Virus record (IMG/VR): IMGVR_UViG_3300049893_000693
Location: 1 to 51,729 of that record
Source: a virus
Direction: 5' to 3' (one strand)
DNA length: 51,729 nt
Part shown: positions 2,683-51,697 of the stretch, piece after piece
How positions within the stretch are numbered: the stretch's first letter is position 1
Layout: each line of letters opens with the position of its first letter
Made by a program: the position numbers and the translations under genes
Notes under the pieces: model-generated
The model's input: only the letters and a program-made list of their open reading frames with translations
What the model was told of the DNA's origin: nothing
Database searches by the model: none

Positions 2683-4758
2683 ATGCCACTCAATCCAAAT
2701 ATGCGCTACCGTGATCGCCTGGGTCGTATTCATGGCCCATTTGTACCGCTATGGCAGCAATTACTTCATGATCCAGAACATAGGCGACAGCATTCTCCCC
2801 AATCCGATCGGCAGATGCGCGAAGATATACAAGAGGATCTCGTATCTACACCAGAACAATTAGCTAGACGATGGACAGAGGGACAAGTATCGTGGACTAT
2901 TACATCCGCGCATACATATTGGGGTGGTCGGCGTTTGCCAGACCTGTCAACATACAACTTAGACCTCGATAATCCCATACCAGTCAACCATCTCTCACTT
3001 GAATCCGATCCATTCCAATACGTTCCAAACCTTTCTACCCAATACGGTCTACCCCTTTCTACCCAACCCTCTTCAAATACGGAGAGCACTATGCCCGCCC
3101 CAATCCAAGTCCGTTTCGTTCCCCCACCCAGCAACGTGCCAGCCAATGCGCGGTGCGACGAAATAGGATGTATAAATCCTATTCGTGTGCGGTTCATCAA
3201 CTGCCTTGAAGACGACAAGGTATTCTATGTGTGCAAGGAGCACGGTTACCGCACCATGGCGGCACCGTTTGAGTACCGTGAAGACCTCGACGCGGTGCTG
3301 CTGTATCCATTCTACAAAGGAGACAAGCCTGTTACCAAGGCTGAGTATGAAGCGGGTACGGCGGTGTGCCCAAATTGCGGTGATCGCGTCGATGCTGCCG
3401 CACTCACCATGCCAGCACCGCAAGGCGCACTGGTGTATTCTGGCCCGCCAATCTGTCCATCGTGCCAGTCTAACTGGTTTACCACATGCCATGGATGTGG
3501 CGTGGCAATGTTGCGCAATCAGGATAATCCTGATGATAGACACTGTCCGGCTTGCGCAAGGTATCGGATCTTTGGCTCGAAGCGGCGTCCTACGCCCGTT
3601 TTCTTCAAAGCCAGCGAAGCCGATGATGCTCGCTTCACTGGCGCAGAGATCGAGTTGGAGCTTGATGGTGCATTCTCACGGGAAGAGGTGACACGCAAGC
3701 TCCTCGAACCCCTGCCTGTCGGCCTCATCCATGCAGAGGAAGACGGATCTCTCAATTATGGCGTGGAGTATGTCACCATGCCCTTGAGTGCCTCGTACAT
3801 CAACCAGAACATTGACCTGTTCCGTAAGTTCTATGACACGGCGCAGGAATACGCCAATCCGGCCAACACACGTAACAATGCTGGCTTGCATGTGCATATG
3901 TCTCGCGCTGCGATCCAGCCGAATGAAGCAGTGAAAATGGAGGAGCTTGTCACCAAGCCCGGCCTCATGCAGCGGTGGCTGCTGCATCTCACTCGTCGCA
4001 GTCCTGATCGGTTCGCTCATTGGGCGAACGCCAGTCCCGATCCTGTGGTGTTGGACACCCTGGCTCGTGGAGCACGGCCCAACGTATCGCGGTATCGCTT
4101 CCTCAACTGGCAGCCTAAGGCCACAGTCGAATGTCGCGGCTTTGCTGGCGATACGGACTTCGAGCACTTCCTTACGGCGACACAATTCGTCCGGGCTTTG
4201 CATGACTTCACCAAGTCAAGTGAGTTCGACCTGAAATGCACGGCGTTCCGTCGCTTCATCCAGAATAGTCAGTACGAAGTGCTGGCCAAGATGGATGCCA
4301 AGTTCGTCGATTCGCGTGGTTCCAATACCATCAAGGCCCAGCTCGCGCCAGGACATTTCAACCATAAGGGACATGGATACTACCTCAAGGCTGAGCCTAG
4401 TGTGTATGATGAAGCCGGATTGTGTGGGTTGAATCGTAGCAAATACGCCTCGGTCTTCGACAATCGCATGCACATTTCGCATGCCAAGCAGACCATACAC
4501 GATCCAGTCACTAATGCGACCTATATGTACTCATCTGGCACGCCAGTCGAGGTTATCCAGACGAACATCGAAGTCGGCAAAGCGCTGTCCATCACCACGA
4601 ATCGTGAACGTGTCCTCGAAGAAGCGCGAGACTACGCCAACTCGCAGCGCATTAAGTTCGGCTCTACCTGCTTCTATGTTGGGGCTTATGTGTTCAACCA
4701 GTTGGAACAGTTGCACACGATGGGTCTCATGTCAAACGAACCTAGCATGGCCGAATAA
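2683..4758 (+). CDS. putative amidoligase with N-terminal zinc clusters
   Basis: A 691-residue protein. Residues 1-136 are low-complexity and polar. Residues 158-187 hold C158/C163/C174/C184/H187, and four CxxC pairs follow (229/232, 258/261, 269/272, 288/291), a zinc-ribbon array. The catalytic part has the hallmarks of the ATP-dependent amidoligase (COOH-NH2 ligase) family related to glutamine synthetase: GAEIELE (320-326), EEDGSLNYGVEYVTMP (352-367) and GLHVHMS (401-407), then a later KATVECRGF strand. Known family members join amino groups to carboxylates on peptides or small molecules. The next gene is a class II glutamine amidotransferase, which could supply ammonia. An internal ATG at 3091 (residue 137) with GGAGAG before it may be the true or a second start. 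The substrate is unknown. Confidence 0.8.
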   Translation: MPLNPNMRYRDRLGRIHGPFVPLWQQLLHDPEHRRQHSPQSDRQMREDIQEDLVSTPEQLARRWTEGQVSWTITSAHTYWGGRRLPDLSTYNLDLDNPIPVNHLSLESDPFQYVPNLSTQYGLPLSTQPSSNTESTMPAPIQVRFVPPPSNVPANARCDEIGCINPIRVRFINCLEDDKVFYVCKEHGYRTMAAPFEYREDLDAVLLYPFYKGDKPVTKAEYEAGTAVCPNCGDRVDAAALTMPAPQGALVYSGPPICPSCQSNWFTTCHGCGVAMLRNQDNPDDRHCPACARYRIFGSKRRPTPVFFKASEADDARFTGAEIELELDGAFSREEVTRKLLEPLPVGLIHAEEDGSLNYGVEYVTMPLSASYINQNIDLFRKFYDTAQEYANPANTRNNAGLHVHMSRAAIQPNEAVKMEELVTKPGLMQRWLLHLTRRSPDRFAHWANASPDPVVLDTLARGARPNVSRYRFLNWQPKATVECRGFAGDTDFEHFLTATQFVRALHDFTKSSEFDLKCTAFRRFIQNSQYEVLAKMDAKFVDSRGSNTIKAQLAPGHFNHKGHGYYLKAEPSVYDEAGLCGLNRSKYASVFDNRMHISHAKQTIHDPVTNATYMYSSGTPVEVIQTNIEVGKALSITTNRERVLEEARDYANSQRIKFGSTCFYVGAYVFNQLEQLHTMGLMSNEPSMAE

Positions 4759-4818
4759 GCCATACTCATCTTACGTATTAAACCTCCTCATTCAACTTCC
4801 TCCAACCAAGGAAATCTC

Positions 4819-5817
4819 ATGTGTATCATCGTCTTTGTACCTCACGACTCTCAACGCCCGTCACTTGACACGCTTCGTCAGTGTTGGACTTCCAATCCTG
4901 ACGGAGCGGGCCTGATGTGGTCAGATGGTGAGCATCTGCTCCATGTCAAGGGGCTTATGACGTTGGACCACTTCTTCGATGCGTGGGATAAAGTCCCGCC
5001 CGGCGTGGCAGTAGCAGCGCACTTCAGGATTCGCTCACATGGCGCGTCCAATGCTGCCATGACGCATCCATTCATCCTGAAGGGTGGCACCATCGGGGTA
5101 ATGCATAATGGTATGATTGCCGACACTGGCTCCACCCATGGCTCCGAATTGTCTGATACGGCCATGTTCGTGAAGGATGAATTGGATAAATTGCCTCATG
5201 AATGGGAATGCAATGAAACTATCAGACGATTCCTGGCTTATCGTATTGGCGCAGGCTCAAAGCTGGTCTTCATGCGCAATGACGGCGTGGCGTGGTTCAC
5301 GAACGAGAGTGCTGGTGTATGGCATGAAGGAGTGTGGTATTCCAATACCTCCTTTCGCGTGACACGAGTACGGAGGATAAAGGCATGGAATGGGTATGGA
5401 AGCTCGTATTATGACGATGATGATCGGGACATGCCTAAGCACACGGCTTCAAAGTTTGTGGCGTTTGGTGTCAAGGATGACGAAGAGAAGTACGGCTCAG
5501 TTGTGACTGGCTCGACCAAAGGGATATTCTGGAACATGCCAGCAGGCCGATGGTGCCGAGCCGTGCAGTCTGGTAAGGGCTGCATGTTGTATGACTGGGA
5601 TTCGACTCTCCAACGATTCGTCGTGTCTGGCTACGCCGAATGGAGTAGCGTTAATAAGATGAAACCAGCATCTGGTGAAGAGAACATCTCTAGTTCAGTG
5701 GCCCGCGATCATTTCCATATTCCAGAATGGTGGGCGGAAGAGGTAGATAAGGACGATCCGGTTACGACTGCGGGCCACTTGCCTTATTCGTCATCCAACC
5801 CAGGACTCCATGTGTGA
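4819..5817 (+). CDS. class II glutamine amidotransferase-like protein
   Basis: A 332-residue protein starting Met-Cys (MCIIV), so removal of Met exposes the N-terminal cysteine nucleophile of the Ntn-hydrolase fold. Other visible hallmarks are NPDGAG (26-31), HFRIRSHG (68-75), HPF (83-85), MHNGMI (95-100) and SDT (112-114), which in this family bind glutamine and the released ammonia path. The C-terminal half (about 165-332) is not recognisable. Glutamine hydrolysis would deliver ammonia to a partner; the amidoligase immediately upstream is the obvious candidate. The ATG follows AAGGAAATCTC. The last bases overlap the next gene. I am confident of the fold, less so of the partner. Confidence 0.85.
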   Translation: MCIIVFVPHDSQRPSLDTLRQCWTSNPDGAGLMWSDGEHLLHVKGLMTLDHFFDAWDKVPPGVAVAAHFRIRSHGASNAAMTHPFILKGGTIGVMHNGMIADTGSTHGSELSDTAMFVKDELDKLPHEWECNETIRRFLAYRIGAGSKLVFMRNDGVAWFTNESAGVWHEGVWYSNTSFRVTRVRRIKAWNGYGSSYYDDDDRDMPKHTASKFVAFGVKDDEEKYGSVVTGSTKGIFWNMPAGRWCRAVQSGKGCMLYDWDSTLQRFVVSGYAEWSSVNKMKPASGEENISSSVARDHFHIPEWWAEEVDKDDPVTTAGHLPYSSSNPGLHV

Positions 5818-6526
5818 CACCATGCCCTACCCACAATACCCATATCCAGGTGATGTCTGGCAGTTAGAAAGTGGGGAGATGGTCACTATGCAAGTACCAG
5901 ACTCCTCGCGCATTTACTATGGGCCATTTAATGTCACAGCTACATTCATATTGAATGGCACTCTCTACATAGCCGGGTTTCGTAATGAAATACTAGCGGA
6001 TAACACGTATGGTCCAGTGTACCTAGCGGTAATGGCGGATAGTATGATGGGGCGGCGACTACTCACCATACGCCGCATATCTCAAGCAGATCCGGATACG
6101 TGCCCGTGGTTTAGTATGAATGTGCATACGGTATTCCAGGTACGGCATAAGATATTGACAGCGATTCAGCTAGTTAACTCCTCGTTCTATCAGGTTAGCT
6201 GGCAACTATCCAAGCGCCATCCTTTGTACTCAATTCATCCAAATGGAGTGCAGGCGTTGGATGGGCTAATTACCTGTCCTGATACCTACCGTCGGCTCGA
6301 ACAAGCGTGGCAGCGCAATTTATCTGGTGGAATGACTGATGTATGGATGTGGCGTTGTCGGTTTAACGACCCACAACTAGATAGTATGGCACCACGAATG
6401 ATTGAAGGTAACCCATGGCGCGATTTTGCGTATGCTGAAGCCATGGCCGACCGCGTGGCTGAACAACTCTTAGCCTTGGGTAAGGCCCGTGGCTATCATC
6501 CAAGGATGCCCAAATGCCCGACATAA
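5810..6526 (+). CDS. hypothetical protein, 238 aa, linked to the amidoligase operon
   Basis: Overlaps the amidotransferase by eight bases, so it is co-translated with it. CAGGACTCC precedes the ATG. The N terminus is Tyr/Pro-rich (MPYPQYPYPG), then a beta-rich region and a helical C-terminal part with several Trp and Met (residues about 160-238). I recognise no catalytic motif. By position it may belong to the same modification pathway, or be the first of the hypothetical genes that follow. Confidence 0.7.
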   Translation: MCDTMPYPQYPYPGDVWQLESGEMVTMQVPDSSRIYYGPFNVTATFILNGTLYIAGFRNEILADNTYGPVYLAVMADSMMGRRLLTIRRISQADPDTCPWFSMNVHTVFQVRHKILTAIQLVNSSFYQVSWQLSKRHPLYSIHPNGVQALDGLITCPDTYRRLEQAWQRNLSGGMTDVWMWRCRFNDPQLDSMAPRMIEGNPWRDFAYAEAMADRVAEQLLALGKARGYHPRMPKCPT

Positions 6527-43413: not shown

Positions 43414-46400
43414 TTAGGTTGATGCAAGAAGTTTGTAGGTGGTACCGTTGATGGTTATGGTCACATATCCGGTAGCCGTGGGCGGCGTAGCAGAATACGT
43501 CCCTAGCGCCCATCCGTAATTTCCACTGAACCCTGCGTAGACCACCGTTTCTGAAAACACCCAATCTTTGGACCACACTTTTCCGCCGCCGATTTGGACC
43601 TCTCCAGACGCCACGGAAGACGGAGAGGCCCCTCGGCACACGGTTACGCCTGTACTAAGCCACTCTATCGGATAATTATTGTCCGTTCTATTGTAGAGGG
43701 CCAACGCATTAGCGGTGTTACCGTTAAGATAGAACTCCCACCTCCGACCACTAGCCGCTGTATCGCCAAGGATAAGCCCTGGGCCTCCACCATTCTGCGC
43801 GGACCATACACGTCCGCCGCCAATCTTCACTTCTCCAGACGCCACAGACGAAGGCGCTGATCCAGTGAACGTTACCGCTCCCAGCGCATTGATCTGATCG
43901 CTTGCACCGCTGCCGTGCGAACTGGCGTGTGGGGCGACCGCTGCCGTTCCGCCACCTGGAACCGTGCTGCTAGTGCGATAGTCGGTCGCGCTAATGAAGG
44001 TTGGCGAGCCGCCCTGGTTCCGGTAGATCACACGGTAGAGCAGTTTCAATTCTTGCAGACTCAGACCGGTCCATGCCGCAGTCGCAGTCGATAAGGCTGC
44101 CTGGGCGTCAGTCAGCGTGGCGTATTCGGTAGTCCCGACGCGAATCCAGATTGGACTGGTGGTGTCGGTCGTAGCGTACACATCGTTGATGACGTATTTG
44201 CCCGAGGCCACGTTCGTTGCGGTTCCTGCGCTGTCGAATTGCAATGTCCCACCACTCACCAGATACGGCGTCGATTCAGTGGTAAAATACATCGCGGAAT
44301 TGGTCCCGCTATACCGCCATAGACGACAGGTGGTTGACGTTCCTGAGGCGGTGAAATTAATGTCCTCGTCGTGGATCACGCCTTGCGTAATCGACAATGT
44401 TGTATTGTCGAAAGTTCCAGACAGCCCCGTCTCATACCGTGTGCCGATGGTCTTGTGCGCCCACAGATGCCACGGCAGGTTTCGTCGTGCCCCGTGTCGT
44501 TCCTCGTTGATGGCATATACCGTTGTCGGATGGTAGTAATAGATCGTGGCCACGGGAATGGTCGTCGTCAGCAAGAGGTCCCATGGATTCGTACTCTGTA
44601 CCAGATTCGGCACACCATTGGTGACTTTGAATGAGATGAAGTATAGTCCTGACGCTGCTGGAAGCGTGCAGGAATCCTCTGCTAAATCATATTCGCGCCC
44701 CTCGTACCATATCTTGAAGGTGCTACCAGTAGGCGAGATCGTGAACACGCGGAAGGTCGGGTCGAAGCTGTATGTTGCGTCTGTTCGGCTATCGAACCCC
44801 TGTTGCCGGTGGAAGTCCTGATAGTGGACTCCGTTGTCGATGTGGACGAAGATGGTTCCGTCGACCGTGCTGTTAAGAGCATAGCCAACAATCACGCGAT
44901 GATTCGGGAATGCTGGTTCGACGTTGGTCAAACCGCCCGCCACAGTCGGGGACAGATAGAGTACGTCGCCGTCTGCGAATCCCATAGTATTGATTCCACG
45001 CACCAACCCAAGAACCGTTACATACCCCTCCGCATTATTTGCGGTATCAGCGGTCACGACGCCGATGGTATGGTGCGGAGAATCCCCGGTGTCTCCGATG
45101 GCCAAGGCCATGCTAGGCCGGTTGCCTTGCGCCCCGTCCACGTAGACGACCTGCCCGTTGGTTATCGTGCCGCCCGTTTTGTTGACGCAGCGGACCCAAT
45201 TCTCTTGGCCGACCTGCAACGTCGCTCCTGAGATTTCAGATTGCAAGGACAACGTGTGATCGACGCTGTCCCAATACATCCGGCCTTCGAGATGCGCCGG
45301 AACCACTGATGGGGTTAATTGAAAATACCCATGCGCTGCGACAACCCCTCCACCTATCTGTACCTCGCCAGGGTCTACTGTTACTGGTATTCCGCCACGA
45401 AACCGCGCCGTTTTAGTTGCGTGGTGGAAATCTAAATAGAAGTCGGTTCCTGGCGCTGTGCCGACACTGAGGATAGCCCCATTGATTATAGTTCCTCCAC
45501 CGATACTCGTCTGGTTGGAAATCCAAGCTGACGGTTTTTGCCCCGTGATTTCCGCATAGTCATACCACTTGGCGAGATTCCCGCCGTGACCAGCGAAGCG
45601 CATCCCCTCTGGCATCAGCTCGAAGGATACGTCTAGGTGTCCAGCCTCACTATTGCTGATGCCGATGTGCGCCAACTGATACCCAATTTTGCTAGCAAAC
45701 ATCAAGTGCATGCCGTCCGATGCGAACCCCGCTGCTGGAGGTTGCAGGATGATACCGCACGTTCGTGGCTCGCCGCCACCGGGACGGGTTATTGTGTCCC
45801 CACCAAACACACGAAGGCCGCCGCTCGCCCAAATCTTGCCGCCACCGATTCGCGTTTCTGCCGTCAGGGTTATTCCGACCCCCGGTGTAGATACCGGCCC
45901 GCCACCAAGGAACTGCGCCCATTTCGTGTCGTTGTCGAAGATAGCATAGGCCGAAGCAGTCGGCAACGCGCCGACGCCCAGGGTTTCCCCGGCCAAGACC
46001 ATGCCGCCGCCAAGCTGGACTTCAGAAGTAGTAAGAATCGTGGGAGCAAAACCTAATACATGCTGCCGCTGTGTGAAGGTCTGTTCCCGCTCCAGCAACG
46101 CCATCGTGCCGCTAAAATCGGGGATCGAGATTGTCCGGGCCTGTGACAGATTCGCTTTAAGCGTCAAGTCCGCGTTCACGATATCAGTAACTAGATGCTC
46201 CAGATCCAGTTCAACCTTGCCCGCATCGCCATCGAACAATCTAACCCAGTTCCGGCCAAACGCCGACATATCGGTAATCTGGTCAGTTGTGATTGAAATA
46301 GGCCCAGTACTGCCAGATCCAGATCCAGCAGTACCAGGATTGATTAGAATACGCGTAGCTGACGTGGCTTTACCAATCGACCCACCAACCACCAATACAC

Positions 46401-47580: not shown

Positions 47581-49148
47581 TACTTCCTCCGCATCTTATA
47601 CGCCGACCCGTTGAGTCGCCTGAACGGTGCCTCATCGTTTCGGGTGATGTCGCTCGTACGGGCGATCATGTACTCGTGGGTCCAAATCTTACGACCATCC
47701 TTATCGCGCGTCTCATCTGGCCCTTCTGGCTCTTTTGGCTTAGGCGGGGGTATCACGTCCATGTCGAGGGCCAAGAACCCATTAGCCAGCGCGTCTACAA
47801 GATCGTCCTCACCCTCTGACTCTGGCATGAACTGAAGCAGTTGGGGCTTTAATGTATGGGTGTAGAAATCACCTTCGGGGAAAAAGACTTGTCCAGCCTC
47901 CATACGCGCCCGAAAAGCGTGGGCGTGGACGTGTTTTGCGGCAGTTCTACTGTGCCTAGATAGCGAAACATACCACTTTTGCTTGGACATTTCAGCCCTA
48001 AACACGGGTTCCAGAGTGGACTGAATCGGCCCCTTTTCAGTAGCCAGGACCCTAGATTTTAGGGTTTTAGCGAGTTTTATGGTCTTTTCTACTGAGTCGA
48101 GTGACTCGAACCGCCCATAATGGATGGTAGGGTGGATATAGACATTCCCCTTATGGTCCACTCCCAGCGCCACCACGGCGGTATGGTCGGCTGTGGTCTT
48201 GGTAGACACAGCGTAGTCAGCCGCGACGAGCCACCGCAACTCAGTATCTTCAGGCAGGGTCTGGTATGTACGGAAGTGCTTGGCTTGGAAGAACCCGCCC
48301 TCTTCGATATACGGGCTACACTGATACATAGAGGCCCACACCCTAGGCGGGAGGGACTTCTTCAGCATAGCGGCTTCAGATGCTGGGTATCGCTCTGGAT
48401 GCAGTACCTCGCCCTTCTTCCGATACAGTTCGTCTACCTTGGCTTCCTCGGGGAACTCGTAGACAATCCAGTTCTCGTGAGAATGGTCTCTAAGAACGCG
48501 TCCAATAAGGTCGTCCACATGCCAGCGTGTGGCAGTAATGATAACACCACCGCCAGGATGAAGGCGAGTGCGAGCGACAGAATTATACCACTCACCAGCG
48601 CGATCTCGAATAAGCTGAGAATCAGCATCTTGCTGATCTTTGCAATAGTCGTCAATACAGAGGATGTGCGCGCCCATGCCCGTGAGCGCACCTCCAATGC
48701 TTGTGGATTTATACATGCCTCCGAGCTTCGTACGAACGAAGTCTGCGGCATTGGATCGGGGGTCGAGTTTGACATCGAATAGGTCCTGATATACGGGGTT
48801 ATTGAGGAGTTCACGGACTTCGCGCCCAAAGCCGTCGCTGAGGTCCTGCCCATATGTAGCAGTGATCCACTCCCACTCAGGATGCTTGGCCAGGACGTAG
48901 GGGGGCAGCTTGCGCGACACGATTTCAGACTTGCCACGGCGCGGCGGGCAGGTGAGAATGAGCCTAGGCGACTTCTTCTGCTCTACGCCTAGGATGAAGT
49001 CGTCAAGCAGTTCACACAGCCGGGTATGGAACCAGCCAGCCTTGTACTCACGGTGGAACAGTTGGATGAACGGCAACAGGGACCGTCTGGCCATCTCCCG
49101 GTTAAGGAGTTCCAGATCCAACGCCGCCACCATCTCATTGTGGTCCAT
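47580..49148 (-). CDS. terL: terminase large subunit
   Basis: 522 residues. The ATPase domain has Walker A CPPRRGKS (67-74, K73) and Walker B ILCIDD (162-167, with D166/D167). The nuclease domain follows, with AADYAVS (D311), ATEKG (E371) and a late DDLVDA (449-454) that fit the RNase H-like metal site. It packages DNA into the prohead through the portal. The ATG overlaps the upstream stop. The type of genome end it makes cannot be told from this sequence. Confidence 0.93.
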   Translation of the reverse strand: MDHNEMVAALDLELLNREMARRSLLPFIQLFHREYKAGWFHTRLCELLDDFILGVEQKKSPRLILTCPPRRGKSEIVSRKLPPYVLAKHPEWEWITATYGQDLSDGFGREVRELLNNPVYQDLFDVKLDPRSNAADFVRTKLGGMYKSTSIGGALTGMGAHILCIDDYCKDQQDADSQLIRDRAGEWYNSVARTRLHPGGGVIITATRWHVDDLIGRVLRDHSHENWIVYEFPEEAKVDELYRKKGEVLHPERYPASEAAMLKKSLPPRVWASMYQCSPYIEEGGFFQAKHFRTYQTLPEDTELRWLVAADYAVSTKTTADHTAVVALGVDHKGNVYIHPTIHYGRFESLDSVEKTIKLAKTLKSRVLATEKGPIQSTLEPVFRAEMSKQKWYVSLSRHSRTAAKHVHAHAFRARMEAGQVFFPEGDFYTHTLKPQLLQFMPESEGEDDLVDALANGFLALDMDVIPPPKPKEPEGPDETRDKDGRKIWTHEYMIARTSDITRNDEAPFRRLNGSAYKMRRK

Positions 49149-49528: not shown

Positions 49529-49754
49529 CGGTTGCCTTTGCTTGTGGAACGGTTTTGTCGGTGAGGTACTTCAGCGCGTCATAGCGCATCTGTGGGGTGG
49601 CTGGGGTAGCGTCTGGCGTAGGATGGCCGTGGCTGTCGAGGATAGGCATGGTACCAGTCAGCGCGATCTGCGTAAGCATACGTATGAAGGCTTCGGTTGG
49701 AAGCGACATACGCAGCGATTCGAACGACTGCATGGTGGTTGGGATTATTGGCAT
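49386..49754 (-). CDS. putative small terminase-like protein
   Basis: 122 residues, helical, with QMRYDALKYLTDKTVPQAKA in the middle and an Ala/Lys/Gln-rich C-terminal helix. Length, helical character and its position two genes before terL suit a small terminase subunit that recognises the packaging site. I recognise no clear helix-turn-helix. Overlaps the preceding gene by ten bases. Confidence 0.5.
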   Translation of the reverse strand: MPIIPTTMQSFESLRMSLPTEAFIRMLTQIALTGTMPILDSHGHPTPDATPATPQMRYDALKYLTDKTVPQAKATDAPSSSSLDEIARKSQVLKSLPLADLIKLRDEAAAKAAQVAAAQVRI

Positions 49755-50266
49755 GGATCAGGGTCCAATACTATTGGTTCGGCTGGGTCGGGCGTGCTAG
49801 AGGAGTCTGGAGAGTTAGACGTGGCTGGCTTGTCGGGCACACGACTGTAGCCTGGATTGGGTATGGTGGATGGTAGGACTGGGGTACGGTTGAGCACGAC
49901 TACCCGCTCTGCCGACAGCAGTTTGGCATGGGCCTGGACCGAGCGGTTGTACTCTACCATGCACTGGTGCACGATCTGCCACATCTTATCTAACAAGGCA
50001 GTCGGCTCTGCGAAGGCGGCGTGTGGGATGGGGTCGGTGTTGTCTGCCAGGGCGTACCGCTGTAGGTTGCGGAGTGCGAGTTCGTACAGATTACGGTACT
50101 GGAGAAGGATTTGCAGGGCAGGTTGATCTGGCGGGGCGAACATGGTCTTACCCGCGCCGAATAGGATAACTTTGAATGAAGCGGCGACTTTAGATAGGGA
50201 TGCCTCGGTGCGATCCTCCACTTCAGGTATCATCATACGCGGCAATTTGGGCATGCTAGGCAGCAT
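49745..50266 (-). CDS. hypothetical protein at start of the late unit, 173 aa
   Basis: First gene of the minus-strand unit. The product (MLPSMPKLPRMMIPEVEDRT...) is helical in the middle (LLQYRNLYELALRNLQRYAL) with a Pro/Ser/Asp-rich tail. Two ATGs four codons apart (50266, 50254) both lack a good ribosome site, so the start is uncertain. Position next to the terminase genes suggests a packaging role, unproven. Confidence 0.65.
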   Translation of the reverse strand: MLPSMPKLPRMMIPEVEDRTEASLSKVAASFKVILFGAGKTMFAPPDQPALQILLQYRNLYELALRNLQRYALADNTDPIPHAAFAEPTALLDKMWQIVHQCMVEYNRSVQAHAKLLSAERVVVLNRTPVLPSTIPNPGYSRVPDKPATSNSPDSSSTPDPAEPIVLDPDPCQ

Positions 50267-50293
50267 TGCAACGATCGGGGGGATTGCAAGCCA

Positions 50294-50350
50294 AGTATAG
50301 CCAAAATGAGCTATACTCGGCTAGACTTAGTTAGACTTGGCTGGACTTAT
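50294..50350 (-). promoter_or_regulatory. putative late promoter with 10-bp tandem repeats and palindrome
   Basis: A perfect inverted repeat AGTATAGC / GCTATACT (50294-50301 / 50310-50317) puts a -10-like TATACT on both strands. Next to it are three 10-base units in tandem (50321-50330, 50331-50340, 50341-50350: CTAGACTTAG, TTAGACTTGG, CTGGACTTAT), repeating once per helical turn. On the minus strand these lie about where -35 and upstream activator sites should be, just before the late genes. No normal -35 box is seen, so an activator may be needed. Confidence 0.4.
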
Positions 50351-50492
50351 TAGGTGTTACAACCTCATACTAGTTCAGATTTTGATCCGCGCGGTATTGA
50401 GGCCGTGTTAAGTACGCCCAGCCGCCCGGCTCGACTAACCCCCCGGCGTACCCCACCCCTGACCAGTCTGACCAGCCCCAATAGCTTGTATG

Positions 50493-50508
50493 GTGTCATT
50501 ATTGACAC
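50493..50508. promoter_or_regulatory. inverted repeat, possible operator
   Basis: GTGTCA, four bases TTAT, TGACAC: a perfect 6-bp inverted repeat typical in size of a dimeric repressor site. A TTGACA-like box overlaps its right half, but I see no good -10 box at the right distance. Confidence 0.4.
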
Positions 50509-50542
50509 ACTATGGGTAGGACGTGTGACGTATGAGGGTATT

Positions 50543-50740
50543 ATGGATAGCGACAACAAAGCGCGGCGGGCTGGACGGAAGCCCGACGTACCGATCGGAG
50601 AAATCCCCCGACAACAAGGGGGCGGGGTATGCCTCAAACCTGGGCTTACTCTGTGGTCCGACCACGGGAACGGTGCTGCGCCTTCGAGACTTGCGGCGGG
50701 TTCTAAACCGCCACATCGTCTGATCCCTGCCCTAGGCTGA
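50543..50740 (+). CDS. possible small basic protein, 65 aa
   Basis: ATG 50543 has TGAGGGTATT upstream. The product MDSDNKARRAGRKPDVPIGE is basic and Gly/Pro-rich, and the frame could also be extended to 50354 without support. Its C-terminal third has no clear fold and runs into the structured block. I consider it only moderately likely to be translated. Confidence 0.35.
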   Translation: MDSDNKARRAGRKPDVPIGEIPRQQGGGVCLKPGLTLWSDHGNGAAPSRLAAGSKPPHRLIPALG

Positions 50741-51006
50741 CAGTGCTTTACTGCGGCACGATACCCTAGGGACAGTGCGACCGGTAGTCATGGTGATTGC
50801 CAGACGGTCGCACAAGGCACACTAGGGCGGAACGCTCGTCCTAGTCCTAAGTCCTGCAATCCCGTGCGCGGGATTGGTGCAAGCCGTCCGGTGAACGGCA
50901 TCGCTAGACAATCGCATCCCTAGGAAACCCTCGTACCGTCCGAACGGTGCTCGCAAGCCCTAGGGTTTGACGAGTCCGAATGGCTTAGGACACTCAAGCC
51001 TAAGCC
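50741..51006 (+). ncRNA. candidate structured RNA or DNA element
   Basis: Between 50741 and 51062 there is no gene, yet perfect stems are dense: GTGCGACCG/CGGTCGCAC (50775-50783 / 50805-50813, 9 bp) enclosed by CCCTAG/CTAGGG (50764-50769 / 50822-50827); CAATCCCG-TGCG-CGGGATTG (50857-50876); GCCGT/ACGGC (50883-50899); GTACCGT-CCGA-ACGGTGC (50933-50950) enclosed by AAACCC/GGGTTT (50925-50930 / 50963-50968); GGCTTAGG/CCTAAGCC (50982-50989 / 50999-51006). Tetraloops and nested stems look like a folded RNA on either strand. A packaging (cos/pac) or protein-binding DNA site is the alternative. It matches no RNA family I know. Confidence 0.5.
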
Positions 51007-51062
51007 TTTCGATGCTCGCCAATCCAGGCAAGCCCTATGCGCCAACCGCGCAGGAGTATCCC

Positions 51063-51503
51063 ATGCCTTCTACCCTCGCCCCCACCCTGGAACAGTCCGC
51101 CACCAATGCCGTGGAGGTCCAGACCCCTGATGTCGTGGTCCTGGCGTCTACCGAGAAATTGAGCGCCAGCGAGGCTGGCAAGGTCGCCAAGCGCGCCGGT
51201 CATCTCGTCTTGGATGCTGGTGATGCGCTTGTGGTCGTCCGTGGCGACAGCGCCTTGGCCACCAATGTCGAATCCCGTCGAGGCCTCCGCAATTATGACA
51301 AGGTCATGGACAGCTTCGACAGTGCCACACCCGCCAGCATCCGCGCCGCGTGTGATGGCGCAAAGGCCCATCTCATGGATATGGTCAAAGCGACCAATGA
51401 AGCGGCCTTTGCGGCGCGGCGTGACATGCTGAATCAAGCCGCATCAGCCACTGGTTGGCGTCGCACGGTCCTGTTGCGCATGGCGCTCAAGGGCCTGAAG
51501 TAA
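51063..51503 (+). CDS. hypothetical early protein, 146 aa
   Basis: ATG 51063 follows GCAGGAGTATCCC, so this start is preferred to 50967. The product is mainly helical with a Val-rich strand region (GDALVVVRGDSALATN) and a basic C-terminal end (GWRRTVLLRMALKGLK). It is transcribed away from the late unit and, if the genome is circular, would be the first gene of the plus-strand unit. No family recognised. Confidence 0.75.
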   Translation: MPSTLAPTLEQSATNAVEVQTPDVVVLASTEKLSASEAGKVAKRAGHLVLDAGDALVVVRGDSALATNVESRRGLRNYDKVMDSFDSATPASIRAACDGAKAHLMDMVKATNEAAFAARRDMLNQAASATGWRRTVLLRMALKGLK

Positions 51504-51515
51504 GTCTAGCCATCC

Positions 51516-51559
51516 GCATCATACTACCCAAGCCCTACTAGGTTAGTGTAGTATGATGC
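51516..51559 (+). terminator. 12-bp hairpin after the 146-aa gene
   Basis: GCATCATACTAC (51516-51527) and GTAGTATGATGC (51548-51559) are exact reverse complements, with a 20-base loop that can itself fold (CCCTACTAGG). It starts 13 bases after the stop. A terminator or processing stem is likely; no long T run follows. Confidence 0.5.
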
Positions 51560-51578: not shown

Positions 51579-51619
51579 CATGCGCCAAGTCTGACTTGAC
51601 GCATGGATGATCGCCATGC
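51579..51619 (+). repeat. two overlapping, mutually exclusive inverted repeats
   Basis: CATGCG-C-CAAGTC-T-GACTTG-A-CGCATG (51579-51605) is a 27-base near-perfect palindrome with one mismatched pair. Its right end overlaps a second hairpin GCATGG / CCATGC (51601-51606 / 51614-51619). Both cannot form together, as in attenuators, or they may be adjacent protein-binding sites. Confidence 0.6.
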
Positions 51620-51649
51620 ATCCTCACGCTCTAAAAGTGTCCTAACCTA

Positions 51650-51676
51650 AAAAGGTATTATTTCTTAATACCTTTT
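51650..51676. terminator. AT-rich hairpin with flanking A and T runs
   Basis: AAAAGGTATTA (51650-51660), loop TTTCT, TAATACCTTTT (51666-51676), then CACTTTTTAGG. The 11-bp stem has A-rich sequence before it and T-rich after, so it could end transcription from either direction. Confidence 0.5.
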
Positions 51677-51697
51677 CACTTTTTAGGTAAAAAACGA

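Follow-up and report, generated by a model that had tools for sequence, protein, structure and literature searches.

Dense folding at the divergence point of a podovirus-like phage genome: a candidate structured 5' leader

Structured 5' leaders and hairpin-bounded mRNAs have precedents in phages, such as the leader of T4 gene 32 and the RNase III-processed mRNAs of T7. The element described here lies at positions 50725-51012 (+ strand) of virus record IMGVR_UViG_3300049893_000693, the whole 51.7-kb stretch of which was analyzed and is referred to as the window. It shares with the T4 and T7 examples a structured, putatively transcribed non-coding stretch before a ribosome site and a strong hairpin behind the gene, although it is longer and denser than they are. 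A second comparison is with the put RNAs of HK022, which are about 70 nt in length and consist of two stem-loops, with putR located some 270 nt downstream of its start site (PMC9378689). Here too an early transcript would carry a hairpin pair in its leader, beyond the promoter; however, the put copies are conserved in sequence, whereas the element spans about 290 nt, has about seven predicted stems and has no sequence match.

Two further classes of phage RNA deserve mention. GOLLD is often >800 nt, and GOLLD and ROOL are often found near tRNA islands (PMC12286853). The element resembles them as a candidate densely folded phage RNA of unknown function, but it is only about 290 nt long, no tRNA genes were found in the 51.7-kb window, and it has no Rfam match. 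With phi29-type pRNA it has in common that a phage whose genes are podovirus-like carries a candidate structured RNA, and again there was no Rfam match, nor were genes for phi29-type protein-primed replication seen in the window. Our check for RNA families covered Rfam, including pRNA, GOLLD, ROOL and riboswitches, and gave no match at the gathering threshold or at E-values up to 5, either for the element or for its counterpart in a related phage; this agrees with the preliminary description of the region, made from the sequence, which proposed an undescribed RNA as one reading.

Position and folding strength of the element

The genome is organized as two gene arms that diverge between positions 50266 and 51063. 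The + strand arm, which is probably early by analogy with similarly arranged phages, carries genes for a DNA polymerase, an SNF2-type helicase, a nuclease and an RNA ligase, and the - strand arm carries the portal-, capsid-, tail- and terminase-region genes. The element was correctly placed at this divergence point in the preliminary description, which had bounded it at 50741-51006. That core holds, but about 50725-51012 describes the element better; its natural left edge is near 50725 because a CCCTAGG arm at 50730 pairs with 50771.

On the + strand the predicted minimum free energy of 50741-51006 was -118.1 kcal/mol, compared with -91.5 ± 4.8 kcal/mol for 200 dinucleotide shuffles (z -5.61), and none of the 200 folded as well; all such statistics are thermodynamic predictions. 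Perfect stems, counted when 7 or more consecutive Watson-Crick pairs enclosed a loop of 3-35 nt, numbered four in 50741-51006 and five in 50725-51012, compared with 0.40 and 0.45 in shuffles, and the observed count was reached by 0 of 1000 shuffles, confirming the original claim of pairing far above chance. The + strand z-score was -5.5 to -5.6 for 50741-51006 and 50741-51012, and the - strand also folded better than chance (about -3.7 to -3.9; -3.93 for 50741-51006). No ORF of 60 residues was present inside 50741-50966. Neighboring stretches gave weaker signals, with z -1.16 for 50546-50740, -3.3 for 50267-50545 and -1.3 for the downstream ORF at 51063-51503. A fixed-frame scan of the whole genome found the same local excess at 1041, 2161, 51521 and 46481, in other spacers as well as in a small number of coding regions. 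The element is thus not unique, and what sets it apart is its length; the other structured spots are mostly one or two long perfect hairpins, whereas the element has about seven stems in a row.

Stems and competing pairings

The stems we found pair at 50730/50771, 50775/50813, 50821/50845, 50857/50876, 50883/50899, 50925/50968 and 50977/51011. Three of these were predicted in transcripts of all lengths that we tried, with pair probabilities between 0.76 and 1.00: a two-part stem-loop of 8 + 8 bp with two G-U pairs at 50775-50813 (0.76-0.97; inner stem GGUAGUCA/UGAUUGCC), a 10-bp stem-loop with G-U pairing at 50821-50845 (0.96), and a 13-bp stem-loop with one mismatch at 50977-51011 (0.91-1.00). 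The perfect 8-bp stem at 50857-50876, which has the 4-nt loop UGCG, is subject to competing pairings and reached only 0.19-0.36. It is the single independent hairpin with a clear 4-nt loop, most other loops being 3-9 nt or holding stems, and the several tetraloop-size loops reported earlier were therefore not borne out.

The remaining pairings depend on where the RNA is taken to start. A long-range helix of 8 bp (50765-50772/50917-50924) encloses nested stems and has a pair probability of 0.96 if the RNA starts at 50740. Its alternative is a local hairpin with CCCUAGG/CCUAGGG arms at 50730-50771 (hairpin HA), and in a transcript from 50546 (leader 50546-51062) the helix is replaced by HA, with a pair probability of 0.98 in the full leader, together with a second local hairpin with CCCUAGG arms at 50918-50965 (HB; 0.42-0.83 in transcripts from 50546). 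The enclosure of stems by further stems, also reported earlier, thus stands for the shorter RNA, in which the long-range helix forms, and gives way to HA and HB in the full leader; the 50925/50968 stem encloses an inner stem of its own.

Underlying these two pairing modes are four CCTAGG palindromes, at 50731, 50765, 50919 and 50959. These are four of the 11 CCTAGG sites in the genome and fall inside 235 nt, an arrangement with a chance probability of about 1e-4, although the clustering is only partly independent evidence because the sites are themselves stem arms. The clustering would suit a role of the region as DNA, as a replication origin or as protein-binding palindromes able to form cruciforms, and both the better-than-chance folding of the - strand and a set of short direct repeats with a 10-bp period (TAGACTTAGT-like), located by a tandem repeat finder at 50315-50353, would fit as well. 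We nonetheless regard a DNA element as quite unlikely: the CCTAGG clustering is partly the same observation as the stems, the related phage shows no such clustering in its element, the + strand fold beats the - strand fold in both phages, and GC skew has no clear turn at the divergence point. The 50315-50353 repeats could be an operator. At the matching place the related phage (L002 2600-2710, - strand) has two copies of a repeat of roughly 40 bp (AAAAGTTNGATTTTTNGTGCGGCCGGGAG), and the repeats of the two phages are possible operators or origin repeats.

The corresponding region in a related phage

Viral-contig scans of IMG/VR with TerL (of the window and of L002), the 49745-50266 gene, the DNA polymerase, the capsid protein, the downstream ORF and the stem pattern identified one close relative, IMGVR_UViG_3300021182_000017, with 80% identity in TerL, 69-70% in the DNA polymerase and 86-87% in the capsid protein. 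Five more viral contigs, compared by TerL alone, had 21-39% identity. There were 57 stem-pattern matches in viral contigs, in which similarity was confined to the pattern; genome-contig scans found no relatives, and there was no DNA match among phage records. Judged by capsid and portal proteins, the closest isolates were Microcystis phage Mae-Yong1326-1 and Rhizobium phage RHph_N65, which at 23-27% identity are too distant for an RNA comparison.

At the same divergence point the relative has a structured stretch of 258 nt with z -5.3 to -5.8 on the strand corresponding to that of the element (other strand -3.8). Its last hairpin abuts an AGGAG, followed by an ORF of 154 residues with a strong hairpin behind it (z -6.7), and the promoter-proximal part of its leader is unstructured (z -0.3). 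In the fixed-frame scan of the relative, a frame at 45501 (reverse) holding part of the leader ranked second among 365 positions, the first being a frame over the end of the 154-residue ORF. G-U pairs outnumbered A-C mismatches 6 to 1 on the strand matching that of the element, whereas the whole leader of the window gave 2 G-U to 5 A-C; this strand test, clear in the relative and unclear in the window, gives partial support only. Alignment of the two elements was no better than that of shuffles, a structural-profile alignment of hairpin order was at chance level (146 of 300 permutations as good), and the 154-residue ORF has no similarity to the ORF at 51063-51503. What the two phages have in common is therefore place, rough length (260-290 nt), orientation of the stronger fold and layout of neighbors, without a demonstrable common fold. 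The proposal of an undescribed RNA fares well in that the fold beats shuffles, the + strand is favored and the second phage is equally structured, but its status as RNA is a reading of the fold.

The lack of conservation in sequence and hairpin order would suit a neutral origin, in which hairpins, whether terminators, processing sites or mobile palindromes, build up in the spacers of this lineage and are more numerous here just because this spacer is the longest; the comparable excess in the spacers at 1041, 2161 and 51521 points the same way. Such accumulation would hardly account for the similar length and identical place of the element in both phages, or for the unstructured promoter-proximal half of the same spacer in each, and we give it very little probability.

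We hold an equally low opinion of a packaging signal (pac or cos) or a pRNA-like RNA for the terminase, which had been raised earlier on the grounds of adjacent terminase genes. The TerL gene is less than 2 kb away, and on the right of the element each contig runs on for just 0.7-2 kb. However, terminase genes lie 1.2-3.4 kb from the element, and TerL, which matches ordinary TerL families, begins at 49148, 1.6 kb off, with the gene at 49745-50266 between them, so the terminase is not immediately adjacent. Both ends of the relative's contig (L002 1-400 on the left, L011 19500-20000 on the right) carry degenerate CTCG[CT]ACTCG repeats, inside which its assembly probably breaks, so the contig ends may be assembly artifacts; on the - strand of the left end these repeats encode SRSYSRSY-like peptides. 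Rfam pRNA did not match, the element directly precedes a ribosome site and ORF in both phages, and its sequence is unconserved despite TerL being 80% identical, whereas one would look for stronger conservation in a terminase target.

A candidate leader for the first rightward mRNA

The first rightward ORF (51063-51503, + strand; ATG at 51063) encodes 146 residues without a known family, and no relatives of it were found in the viral-contig or genome-contig scans. It begins 50 nt from the end of the element. In between are a small UGCGC/GCGCA hairpin at 51038-51052 and, immediately after it, an AGGAG ribosome site at 51052-51056; behind the ORF there is a strong hairpin at 51516-51559 (z -7.1), a candidate site of 3' processing or termination. 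In both phages, then, a non-coding fold immediately precedes the ribosome site of an ORF. We also considered an anti-ribosome-site helix (50851-50856/51050-51055) and set it aside on a computed pair probability of zero, although that computation was one base out of register.

Upstream of the element, two promoter-like tandem motifs (TTGACACACTATGGGTAGGAC, then TGTGACGTATGAGGGTATTATG) at 50502-50545 (+ strand), which presumably mark the start of a rightward transcript, have a match at the corresponding site in the relative. Alignment of this stretch between the phages scored 37, and one of 100 shuffles did as well. The pattern TGTGAC-N6-GGGTATNATG matches exactly at the second motif and occurs exactly once in the relative (L002), at the corresponding place, although the match is non-independent since the pattern was derived from those two sites. 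The promoter-like region has no match to the sigma-70 consensus, and predicted sigma-70 promoters are absent from it. By eye, GACACACTATGGG (50502-50522) looks like a promoter for a T7-type RNA polymerase, but the large ORFs that were compared with Pfam and PHROG gave no match to a phage polymerase of this type. The promoter-proximal part of the leader (50546-50724) holds short hairpins, and structure over 50546-50740 is at chance level.

From the folding excess and its location, the presence of an ORF preceded by a ribosome site, and the equal layout in the second phage, we infer that the element serves the first rightward mRNA, which is probably early, as a structured, untranslated 5' leader, an explanation to which we assign an even chance of being right; transcription of the leader, its direction, its promoter, its early timing and its function belong to this inferred part. 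Transcription would begin near 50500-50545, at the promoter-like motifs kept in the relative, and the last 290 nt of the leader would form a chain of hairpins ending just ahead of the ribosome site of the 51063-51503 ORF, with the strong hairpin downstream of that ORF closing the unit. The leader may insulate and stabilize the first mRNA against ribonucleases and set translation of the first gene, and the competing CCTAGG pairings would allow it two folds. A leader accounts for the position, strand preference, ribosome site and 3' hairpin in both phages, and the unstructured promoter-proximal part in both (z -1.2 and -0.3) places the signal at the ORF-proximal end. We rank control of stability or translation first among leader roles because it makes the fewest demands. 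Against a leader are the indecisive G-U test in the window, the unshared hairpin order, the unrelated downstream ORFs and the absence of sigma-70 promoters. In the full leader the ribosome site is predicted to be hidden, a prediction that depends on pairing over a 400-nt range and does not recur in this form in the relative. Overall, the preliminary interpretation is partly supported: the structural anomaly is well supported, and the explanation that fits it best is an ordinary one.

The most interesting rival is a cis-acting antiterminator or polymerase-modifying RNA like HK022 put, whose nascent hairpins would bind RNA polymerase and permit read-through of early-gene hairpins. The presumed early promoter lies upstream of the element, HA and the stem that follows it make up a pair of directly adjacent stem-loops within 86 nt (50728-50813), about 185 nt past the motif, and strong hairpins that might need to be read through follow the first ORF in both phages and several other genes in the window. 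These hairpins, however, mostly lack T-runs and may not be terminators, no equivalent stem-loop pair is recognizable in the relative, and neither a sequence match nor an Rfam match was obtained, leaving this role fairly unlikely in our judgment. Rather unlikely, too, is a separate small non-coding RNA acting in trans (a regulator, decoy or anti-defense RNA) in place of a leader. Its compact dense fold would be set apart from the unstructured upstream part, but we found nothing resembling a terminator in the interval that separates element and ORF, and in both phages no more than 50 nt pass before the ribosome site and ORF.

Returning to a leader, it is also conceivable, though again rather improbable, that the two elements represent a new, fast-evolving class of leader RNA whose place, length and degree of folding persist while the sequence does not, and which acts on the host transcription machinery (antitermination) or escapes a host nuclease at the onset of infection. 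If place and folding are indeed kept without sequence, searches based on sequence would miss such elements, and the first rightward gene of these phages would be under RNA-level control. A leader, if confirmed, would be one not described before, located where a phage lineage without a cultured close relative has its main switch point.

Some minor observations concern other parts of the window. A cluster of amidoligase, glutamine-amidotransferase-like and GMP-synthase-like ORFs (weak Pfam matches) at 2683-6526 perhaps specifies a pathway for nucleotide or peptide modification. An ORF of 82 residues at 2302-2550 is 61% identical in the related phage, and its coding sequence itself folds unusually well, with z of roughly -4 to -5 for the - strand. 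Lastly, several rightward ORFs are followed by near-perfect hairpins of 12-19 bp, mostly without a T-run; long hairpins behind ORFs lie at 1098-1125, 2189-2215, 2623-2653, 51516-51559, 51579-51605 and 51648-51678, and could be unusual terminators or RNA-processing sites.
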